A stretch of 64,000 nt of DNA from NCBI RefSeq assembly GCF_041477585.1, contig NZ_JBGNYA010000001.1, positions 2,914,001-2,978,000 on the forward strand, in the 5' to 3' direction. The notes beneath the pieces are model-generated. The model made no database searches. It saw nothing but the letters and a program-made list of their open reading frames with translations, and had not been told where the DNA came from. This document shows positions 26,581 through 28,861 of the stretch, in pieces (position 1 is the stretch's first letter; every line of letters begins with the position of its first letter). Both the position numbers and the translations under genes were made by a program. This stretch comes from Halobellus sp. MBLA0158. Lineage in GTDB: Archaea > Halobacteriota > Halobacteria > Halobacteriales > Haloferacaceae.

Positions 26581-26596
26581 TTTAGGCCAACCTAAA
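26581..26596. promoter_or_regulatory. DtxR/IdeR-like palindrome 1
   Basis: TTTAGG-CCAA-CCTAAA has perfect six-base arms, the pattern of DtxR-family operators (TTAGG...CCTAA). It lies 34 bp from palindrome 2 and 285 bp before the three-gene operon that ends in a DtxR-family regulator. Confidence 0.75.
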
Positions 26597-26614
26597 TCGA
26601 AGACGTTTTGAATT

Positions 26615-26630
26615 TTTAGGTTGTCCTAAA
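26615..26630. promoter_or_regulatory. DtxR/IdeR-like palindrome 2
   Basis: TTTAGG-TTGT-CCTAAA, again with perfect six-base arms, overlapping an AT-rich stretch (AATTTTTAGG) that resembles a TATA region. Binding here would be expected to block the promoter. Confidence 0.75.
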
Positions 26631-26880
26631 ACCGAAGCCTGTTCGGACGCCAGTCGGCGACGGTCGCGGTGGCCCTCCGAACGGACGCCAACAACGGGCC
26701 TATGACACCACTCAGCCGAACTCAGCACCGAGAACGACCGCTGCACGCGACCGGGTACGGCGAGCTCCGCCGTCGCTCCGGTGCGATGCCGACTCGAAGT
26801 GCCGGGAGGCACCAGCGCTTCCCGCGGAGGACCTCGGAGACTCCTGGCAGTCGGCGACATCAGGGAGCGAGGAGGGGGAG

Positions 26881-27795
26881 ATGGTAGGTCCAACGCTAGT
26901 CGAGATCAGGAGCCACATCGAGAGCCTGGCCAGCGAGACCGGCGAGTACTGCATCCGGTGCGGGCGCACGGGCGACAGGCCGGTCCCCGCGGCCGGAAAG
27001 CGGTTCGACGATCGTGAGACCGCGCGGAAAGCGGTGCGAGCGACCGAACAGTACCGGACCGCGCTCCGGCGCTACGACCCGCGGGTCCCCTACTACGACC
27101 TGATCGTCTGTCAGGTCGCGGAGCCGTCGCGTCCGGCGGACGAACATCAAGCGGCTACAACAGAGGCCCGTCGGACGCTCTCGGAGCCCGTGCTCGACGT
27201 CGGGACCGCCGAGCCAGAGCGGCGGGAGCTCGTGGAATTCTGTCACCGCATCGCGGGCGCGGTCTTCGAGACGCTCTCGGACGCCGGCTACGACGACGTC
27301 GAAGCCAGCATCTTGGACGAGTACTTCGAGCTGGCAGAGAGCGTCGGCGATCCGGACGAGCTCTGTCTGTGCCTGCTCGAAAGTATGGCCGTCGAGATCG
27401 AGACGCGGCTCGGAGCGGCCGAGCAGGCCGAGGTCCTCGGCGGCGCGACGACCCGACTGGGAGCGACAGACGCCACCGACGAGCCGATCGCGGCGACGTT
27501 GGCGCATCTCAGCGACCGCGGGCTGATCGGCGAGTACAGTTGCTCCGCTCCGGTCGATTCGGACGGCGCCTCCCGATCGATCGTCGTCCGGCTCACCGAT
27601 TACGCGCTGTCGCCGCGGGGCGATCGGCTGCCGATACTCCCCATCGTCATCGAACTGTTCCGGCGACAGGCCGACCCCGCCCCGACGTCGTTCAGCGCGA
27701 CCGAGTGCCGTAGCGGCTGGCGAATCACGCTCACGCCCGCAGACGCCGGCGAGCCGGCCGCGCTCTCCAGCGCCCCCATCGAATCCGAAGAGTGA
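26881..27795 (+). CDS. Conserved haloarchaeal protein, first gene of the DtxR operon
   Basis: A 304-residue acidic soluble protein. The N-terminal 80 residues (LVEIRSHIESLASETGEYC, then a CIRC motif and VPYYDLIVCQV) form one unit; a helical region LVEFCHRIAGAVFETLSDAGYDD follows at 115-195, and a beta-rich C-terminus follows that. I recall similar proteins as DUF7551/DUF7552 but do not trust the name. GGAGGGGG just before ATG 26881 supports the start. Its operon partners are a 54-residue protein and a DtxR-family regulator. Function unknown; a role in metal response is inferred from context. Confidence 0.7.
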   Translation: MVGPTLVEIRSHIESLASETGEYCIRCGRTGDRPVPAAGKRFDDRETARKAVRATEQYRTALRRYDPRVPYYDLIVCQVAEPSRPADEHQAATTEARRTLSEPVLDVGTAEPERRELVEFCHRIAGAVFETLSDAGYDDVEASILDEYFELAESVGDPDELCLCLLESMAVEIETRLGAAEQAEVLGGATTRLGATDATDEPIAATLAHLSDRGLIGEYSCSAPVDSDGASRSIVVRLTDYALSPRGDRLPILPIVIELFRRQADPAPTSFSATECRSGWRITLTPADAGEPAALSSAPIESEE

Positions 27796-27797
27796 CG

Positions 27798-27962
27798 ATG
27801 GATACTCGTGCCGACCACCCAGGACCGGAAGCCGTCCCGACGACGGACGGTGCCGACGGAGGCTCCGAGGCGTTGGAGGCGGTTTTCAGCGCCGCATTGG
27901 GTCCCGCACCGGCCGTCAAGCCCCCGGCCACGATGAAACGAGCGGGATGGGCGGACGGATAA
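27798..27962 (+). CDS. Small 54-residue protein coupled to the DtxR regulator
   Basis: ATG 27798 lies two bases after the stop of the preceding gene, and its stop overlaps the regulator's ATG (TAATG). The product is acidic at the start (MDTRADHPGPEAVPTTDG) and ends with a short helical GLY/ALA stretch and KRAGWADG. It has no recognisable domain. The tight coupling on both sides argues that it is translated even though it is short. Confidence 0.55.
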   Translation: MDTRADHPGPEAVPTTDGADGGSEALEAVFSAALGPAPAVKPPATMKRAGWADG

Positions 27963-28345
27963 TGGCGGAGCGCTCGCAGTACCTCCTCGCGCTCTACATC
28001 GCCGAACACCGCGAGTCGACGCCGGTGTCTTCGGGGACCGTCGCGGACCTGCTCGGGAAATCGACGGCGACGACGACGGAGACCTTCCAGCGGCTGGCGG
28101 ACGACGGCCTCGTGGAGTACGAGCGGTACGAGGGCGCCCGGCTCACCGACGAAGGTCGGGAGCGCGCCGCTGAACTCCACGAGACGTACGTGGCGCTCTC
28201 GTGGTTCTTCCGTACGGTGCTCGACCTGGATGGGTACGAGACCGAAGCGAGGCGTCTGGCGAGCAGCGTCAGCGCCGACGTCTCCGACCAGCTGGTGTCG
28301 ACGTTCCTCGTCGCGGAAGCAGAGCGAGAGGGCGAGGACGAGTAG
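27962..28345 (+). CDS. DtxR/MntR-family metal-dependent transcriptional regulator (SirR-like)
   Basis: A 127-residue protein. Residues 1-60 are a winged helix (QYLLALYIAEHRES...GTVADLLGKSTATTTETFQRLADDGLVEYERYEGARLTDEG) and residues 60-125 a helical dimerisation and metal-binding domain typical of DtxR (ELHETYVALSWFFRTVLDLDGYETEARRLASSVSADVSDQL). Glu and His metal ligands are present in part, but I cannot check all positions. ATG 27962 is coupled to the upstream gene. It is the obvious candidate for binding the TTTAGG-type boxes upstream and at nifU. Confidence 0.85.
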   Translation: MAERSQYLLALYIAEHRESTPVSSGTVADLLGKSTATTTETFQRLADDGLVEYERYEGARLTDEGRERAAELHETYVALSWFFRTVLDLDGYETEARRLASSVSADVSDQLVSTFLVAEAEREGEDE

Positions 28346-28432
28346 CGGACGGCACCAGCGGCTCGCCGTTCGACCGTTCACTCGGCGACACCACGAAAAA
28401 TAAGCGACCCGGTCACGATCCAGCGAGGCGTC

Positions 28433-28759
28433 TCAGAACGGCGGGCTGTAGTCCTCGTACTCGTCCATATCCTCCATCTCGTCGGTCTTCGACGGCATCA
28501 CCGCCGCCCGCGGTCCGCCCGCCCGCCGGACGGTCACCTCGGACACCTCGTCGAGTTCTTCGGCGAGTCGCTGTTTGATGGCTTTCATCGTCATCGGCGC
28601 GATACCACACCCCGAGCAGGCCCCGCCGATCGCGACGGTCACCTCGCCGGTCGCCTCGTCGACGTCCTCGATCTCGAAGTGGCCGCCGTGTTCTTGGATC
28701 TGCGGGACGTTGTCGCTCAGGTAACTCCGGGTCTGTCGCTCGAGTTTTTCAGCGCTCAT
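28433..28759 (-). CDS. nifU: NifU C-terminal domain (Nfu-type) Fe-S scaffold protein
   Basis: A 108-residue protein with the Nfu signature CSGC within AIGGACSGCGIAPMTMKAIKQRL. Two such proteins hold a [4Fe-4S] cluster between them and deliver it to target enzymes. The C-terminus (DEMEDMDEYEDYSPPF) is an acidic tail. ATG 28759 is about 25 bp after a TATA-like TTTATTATATAT, so the transcript is probably leaderless, and DtxR-like boxes lie directly upstream, linking it to iron status. Confidence 0.9.
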   Translation of the reverse strand: MSAEKLERQTRSYLSDNVPQIQEHGGHFEIEDVDEATGEVTVAIGGACSGCGIAPMTMKAIKQRLAEELDEVSEVTVRRAGGPRAAVMPSKTDEMEDMDEYEDYSPPF

Positions 28760-28780
28760 CACAGTCGGAGATACGGTCGA

Positions 28781-28793
28781 ATATATAATAAAT
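28781..28793 (-). promoter_or_regulatory. TATA box of nifU
   Basis: TTTATTATATATT on the minus strand, 22-34 bp before ATG 28759. The first DtxR-like box begins 8 bp upstream of it. Confidence 0.6.
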
Positions 28794-28800
28794 CTGTTCA

Positions 28801-28816
28801 GTTAGTAACGCCTAAA
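28801..28816. promoter_or_regulatory. DtxR/IdeR-like box upstream of nifU
   Basis: GTTAGT-AACG-CCTAAA matches 10 of the 12 arm positions of TTTAGG-N4-CCTAAA. Position directly upstream of the nifU TATA box suggests control of nifU by the adjacent DtxR-family protein. Confidence 0.6.
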
Positions 28817-28845
28817 AATTTGGTATTCGGGCTACTTACGACTAT

Positions 28846-28861
28846 TTTAGGTGGTGCTAAC
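28846..28861. promoter_or_regulatory. Second DtxR-like box in the nifU upstream region
   Basis: TTTAGG-TGGT-GCTAAC matches 10 of 12 arm positions and starts 45 bp from the first box. A further half-site GGCCTAAC is near 28895. Distance from either start codon leaves open which gene it serves. Confidence 0.45.

Follow-up and report, generated by a model that had tools for sequence, protein, structure and literature searches.

The window analyzed here, a 64 kb stretch of the Halobellus sp. MBLA0158 genome, contains two palindromic operator boxes upstream of an operon that ends in a DtxR-like regulator of the Idr clade. We consider it probable (roughly 0.6) that this is an iron-regulon operon controlled by the paralogue TroR, with Idr acting on the same boxes without sensing metal. 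The window boxes belong to a genome-wide iron regulon and not to a private circuit, because they recur throughout the genome and many of them stand beside iron-uptake genes. The initial annotation had described a DtxR-family regulator with operators at its own operon as a compact, self-contained metal circuit; the operators are genuine, conserved DtxR-type boxes, but a self-contained circuit is not supported, since the boxes are spread genome-wide and abundant in genomes without Idr, and the regulator lacks the canonical metal ligands. The features of the locus are as follows.

26581..26596, no strand: upstream box TTTAGGCCAACCTAAA, an exact TTTAGG-N4-CCTAAA match
26597..26614, + strand: 18-bp spacer TCGAAGACGTTTTGAATT, putative core promoter between the boxes (BRE-like CGAAG and TATA-like TTTTGAA)
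26615..26630, no strand: downstream box TTTAGGTTGTCCTAAA, an exact TTTAGG-N4-CCTAAA match
26631..26880, + strand: leader of 250 bp with no credible gene or known RNA (ORF comparison, Rfam, folding)
26881..27795, + strand: gene 1, DUF7552 + DUF7551 protein, 304 aa (PF24422, E 2.3e-36; PF24420, E 8.7e-67)
27798..27962, + strand: gene 2, 54-aa ORF, possibly a coupling spacer (ORF list, comparison with relatives, codon GC)
27962..28345, + strand: gene 3, Idr-clade DtxR-like regulator, 127 aa (PF01325, fold match, ligand columns, clade support)
28433..28762, - strand: NifU-like Fe-S protein, 109 aa (PF01106, E 1.8e-14)
28801..28816, no strand: imperfect box with two mismatches, upstream of the NifU-like gene (motif scan)
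28846..28861, no strand: second imperfect box with two mismatches, upstream of the NifU-like gene (motif scan)

The two window boxes are genuine regulatory sites. They start 34 bp apart, as initially annotated, and with up to two mismatches allowed the motif is found four times in the 64 kb window against 0.16 expected from the mean of shuffled windows. The pattern search over the genome and related haloarchaea that the initial annotation had suggested bears the motif out: the whole genome contains 15 perfect boxes against none for a reversed-motif control, and 24 against 3 when one mismatch is tolerated. The genes adjoining these boxes encode several iron-siderophore substrate-binding proteins (Peripla_BP_2), an FAD-dependent oxidoreductase, a 4Fe-4S protein and a DpsA-type ferritin. 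Other boxes have neighbors without an obvious tie to iron, for instance a gene for a GFO/IDH/MocA oxidoreductase. The operator box is common to the window operon and the iron-uptake genes of the same genome, which places the operon within an iron regulon that is probably of the haloarchaeal TroR type.

The boxes are conserved in relatives. Across 44 named haloarchaeal Idr loci, 127 boxes with at most one mismatch are found against a single control match, and a box lies close upstream of the regulator gene in 28 of these loci. In an initial set of loci, 13 of 32 DUF7551 matches have a box within 700 bp upstream; three of those matches are to the window's own gene, which is contained in more than one locus because the loci overlap. 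The boxed DUF7551-Idr neighborhood recurs within one genus (G331, G355). The NifU-like gene is probably a neighbor in the same regulon, and in Haloferax mediterranei, Halomicrococcus and Halobaculum a NifU gene is found right next to Idr. The imperfect boxes upstream of it in the window (28801-28861) are 45 bp apart, and degenerate related boxes also precede Idr-adjoining NifU genes in other haloarchaea.

The boxes of relatives are frequently paired in a fixed register: 52 of 60 distinct neighboring pairs within 80 bp start 36 bp apart, with none for the control motif, and in the 148 genomes of the family 36-bp pairs with up to three mismatches number 304 against 0 in a reversed-pattern control. 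When the 20-bp spacers of 43 such pairs are oriented by the neighboring gene, their consensus is CGAAA followed by TTTA. In archaeal promoters BRE and TATA box follow one another in this way, which suggests that the paired boxes enclose the promoter. In many relatives the start codon lies 3-6 bp after the second box, an arrangement that fits the leaderless mRNAs of haloarchaea. A pair elsewhere (L170, 5581-8113) consists of a perfect box with a second box 36 bp on, and the gene that follows encodes a DUF5059 and plastocyanin-like protein. The window pair keeps CGAAG and TTTTGAA in its 18-bp spacer but is atypical in that the first gene starts 250 bp downstream. From its elements we infer that the spacer is a core promoter enclosed by the boxes, and the downstream box would then be expected to lie over the stretch immediately ahead of the transcription start. 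Because many relatives do not have such a distance of 250 bp between second box and start codon, the promoter in use could also be a different one.

The region of about 250 bp that had been annotated as devoid of a credible protein appears to be just that. Its one 72-aa ORF is Arg-rich and has no relative among the haloarchaeal loci compared, and a hidden leader gene was rejected on these grounds. A riboswitch or structured leader in 26631-26880 was likewise rejected, since Rfam gives no match above the gathering score and the RNA folds no better than its shuffles (z 0.20).

Downstream of the boxes, the annotated operon of three plus-strand genes (304, 54 and 127 aa) ending in a DtxR-like regulator is borne out by the ORFs and by a PF01325 score of 39.8 bits for the last of them. 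Gene 1, previously listed as unrecognized, matches Pfam DUF7552 and DUF7551, both well above cut-off, and we know of no function for either family. Of the 293 genomes of the order, 154 encode a DUF7551 protein, often in the company of an FAD oxidoreductase, ABC substrate-binding genes, a DUF7260 gene or Idr. The AlphaFold model of gene 1 has a pLDDT of 81.8, and its comparison with the PDB gave nothing below E 0.1, so that assigning DUF7551 a fold was rejected. Because the predicted fold finds no confident relative, we propose only an accessory role for DUF7551 in the iron-limitation response. Of the two products first described as uncharacterized, gene 1 can thus be assigned to a Pfam family that is widespread, if without a known function, and the 54-residue peptide shows no sign of conservation. 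The annotated ORF for this peptide is present, and its TAA overlaps the ATG of the regulator gene. It may not be a functional protein, because it has no detectable relative among the loci compared and a lower third-position GC (0.70) than the neighboring genes (0.85 and 0.89). A conserved microprotein was considered and rejected: small ORFs occupy this place in some relatives (e.g. MSDGPRRRRTNAWAWAYLALFG...), but they are unrelated. Two other small or recurring products were seen in these neighborhoods. In several genera a DUF7260 gene stands between DUF7551 or a box pair and Idr (L078, 6894-7682; L081, 6920-7711; L161, 1352-2164). A 55-aa protein with an SVFxESGNxDGWIxSD motif recurs near Idr or behind a perfect box (L045, 1525-1692; L159, 2775-2942; L078, 8602-8769; L084, 8465-8632), and a Pfam scan of one copy gave no match.

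The 127-aa regulator contains the DtxR N-terminal winged-helix DNA-binding domain, PF01325 scoring well above its cut-off of 26 bits, and the metal domain PF02742 reaches 15 bits, below its cut-off of 27. Its AlphaFold model (pLDDT 83.5) matches DtxR, MntR and DR2539 in Foldseek with a TM of about 0.8 over 112-124 columns, so the protein is predicted to have the two-domain DtxR fold, including the dimerization domain. Across 67 sequences of the clade, the canonical metal ligands (DtxR M10, H79, E83, H98, C102, E105 and H106), as read from an alignment with SirR and solved structures, are replaced or deleted. H79 is Tyr in all 67 sequences, E83 is Ser in 64, C102 is Met in 58, E105 is Ala in 59 and H106 is Gly in 61, while H98 falls in a deletion. 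Judged from these columns, the regulator lacks the ligands that sensing of Fe2+ or Mn2+ in the known way would require.

The DNA-reading residues tell a different story from the ligands: at the counterpart of DtxR Gln43, 31 of 31 TroR-type and 63 of 67 Idr sequences have Glu, and most SirR proteins have Ser. As read from the alignment and not from a DNA-bound structure, the reading residues of Idr match those of TroR. The Cys tail (CPDC) is present in 29 of 31 TroR-type proteins and in 0 of 67 Idr proteins. The clade forms a single branch (support 100/98) with a long stem, apart from the TroR and SirR types, and its exact sister is uncertain owing to long branches. The window protein is 45-64% identical to clade members and about 37% identical to the TroR type. 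Two features are less ordinary in what is otherwise an ordinary iron-regulon operon with an Idr-type paralogue: the metal site is lost throughout the clade, and the paired boxes keep a tight geometry.

Three clear DtxR proteins are encoded in this genome: the window protein, a SirR type (L005), the only one with full canonical metal ligands, and a Cys-tail type (L006). The last, the TroR type, is without several of the canonical DtxR ligands; its conserved features include a Cys at position 80 and a tail of the form CPDCF...C. In the protein at L006 (1417-1869) and 30 relatives, this pattern suggests an unusual iron or Fe-S sensing site. Haloferax DtxR naming draws on PMC6801745 and PMC11349517, and SirR has been described with a FeoA domain (PMC11218638). 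Three Haloferax genomes contain an exact match to a published flanking primer for HVO_0863, TroR (PMC6801745), in each case near the gene of the Cys-tail type; a search of short Haloferax stretches for its partner primer gave no match. Because those three genomes each contain three strong DtxR genes, one per type, elimination, together with neighborhood, indicates that the window clade probably corresponds to Idr (HVO_0538) of Haloferax. In Halobacterium the Cys-tail gene lies beside genes that we read by eye as a SufC-type Fe-S assembly cluster, and the SirR-type gene adjoins a gene for a GDT1-family cation transporter. Both in this genome and in Halobacterium salinarum, a box of another kind, TTTAGA-N4-TCTAAA, lies near the start of the SirR-type gene, the two cleanest cases being L134 (1691) and L136 (1472). 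According to a 2024 NAR paper, TroR reportedly acts as a repressor of Idr and recognizes a conserved motif that precedes iron genes, and in a 2011 NAR paper Idr1 and Idr2 are said to bind near each other.

We compared the 148 genomes of the family, 65 with the Idr clade and 83 without it (presence called at about E 1e-22). At least five perfect boxes are present in 50 of the 83 Idr-less genomes, and box pairs in 49, so the paired box was rejected as a signature of Idr. Because the boxes are abundant in genomes without Idr, another, widespread protein must read them, and the best candidate is TroR, the ubiquitous DtxR paralogue with the Cys-rich tail. Genomes with Idr have a mean of 10.7 perfect boxes compared with 5.6 in those without, and the excess is found at P below 0.05 within four of the six genera tested. 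It may reflect an active role of Idr or a joint gain of iron-uptake islands, and the higher count would also fit Idr as a main reader where it is present. Haloferax mediterranei has a box pair followed by the substrate-binding gene E6P09_17310, the small gene E6P09_17315 and then, immediately downstream, Idr. Expression of E6P09_17310 and E6P09_17315 drops along with that of siderophore genes during denitrification (log2FC -3.20 and -4.11; PMC11218638). This pattern indicates co-regulation and is not proof of iron control.

Four other ways of assigning the boxes and the regulator have to be weighed against these data. The proposal made with the initial annotation was that the 127-aa protein represses its own operon in a metal-dependent manner, occupying the two boxes together with Fe2+ or Mn2+. 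Boxes at its own operon, a recognition helix compatible with them and a DtxR/MntR fold all speak for this idea, which nevertheless seems very unlikely given that all canonical ligands are replaced across the clade, that PF02742 falls far below its cut-off and that boxes are common where Idr is absent. The manganese regulator SirR has the complete metal site that Idr lacks and might be thought to read TTTAGG-N4-CCTAAA, but its recognition residue differs, its Halobacterium orthologue adjoins the cation transporter gene and its own promoter has TTTAGA-N4-TCTAAA instead; we regard this assignment as extremely improbable.

The remaining alternatives concern what Idr does. The clade might respond to a different signal, by way of another metal site or a small ligand, with its newly conserved residues (LHETYVxLSWFFR, DxxExEA) as the sensor, and the replacement motif is indeed very strongly conserved, with H73, Y76, S80, W81, F82, F83, R84 and E93 invariant in 21 Idr-clade sequences. 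Much of this motif consists of hydrophobic residues, whose role may be confined to restoring the helix core or the dimer interface, and we know of no ligand for the clade; sensing of this kind is in our view unlikely. It is rather unlikely, too, that Idr is an activator or anti-repressor that is induced in low iron and displaces TroR or forms inactive mixed dimers. Idr itself is in the boxed regulon in many genomes, and genomes with Idr have more boxes and pairs, although this correlation may only reflect the shared gain of iron-uptake islands. Four interlocking DtxR factors reported in Halobacterium salinarum, as cited in PMC6978704, would also accord with such a role.

Our preferred reading is the TroR-controlled operon with a sensorless Idr. 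When iron is sufficient, a metal-responsive DtxR paralogue, most likely the TroR type, would bind the boxes flanking the promoter and block transcription, and iron limitation would open the operon to yield the DUF7552-DUF7551 protein and the Idr-clade protein. Because its fold and TroR-like reading residues are kept and its metal site is lost, Idr most likely binds the same boxes independently of metal, where it would damp or modify the iron response. We also suggest, more tentatively and at somewhat under even odds, that a sensorless Idr has been kept widely in haloarchaea and reads the tandem operators of TroR in the 36-bp register around TATA, such that TroR controls Idr and Idr modulates the targets of TroR as a sensor and sensorless-partner pair. 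What was presumed to be a private metal switch thereby becomes part of the iron network already known in haloarchaea. The locus offers a testable reason for the presence of several DtxR proteins per cell, one of which senses and one of which apparently cannot, although the same boxes seem readable by either. The fixed layout of paired boxes around a core promoter also provides a simple genome-wide marker of iron-controlled genes, including uncharacterized ones such as those for DUF7551, DUF7260 and the recurring 55-aa protein.

Compared with bacterial DtxR, IdeR and MntR, the window protein shares the two-domain fold and palindromic operators, but it retains no primary or ancillary metal ligand and has no SH3/FeoA domain. 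It shares recognition-helix residues with TroR (HVO_0863), and the window boxes fit a genome-wide iron element, whereas the Cys at position 80 and the CPDC...C tail of the TroR type are both missing from it. There is also a likeness to the Haloferax volcanii protein that is by elimination probably Idr (HVO_0538), and to the Halobacterium salinarum member of the clade, with which similarity and phylogeny group the window protein. The Haloferax and Halobacterium Idr proteins and the window protein are all short DtxR proteins with an SWFFR-type motif, boxes upstream and iron-gene neighbors; the Idr gene lies behind the DUF7552-DUF7551 gene in the window, and in Haloferax a DUF7260 gene takes that place.
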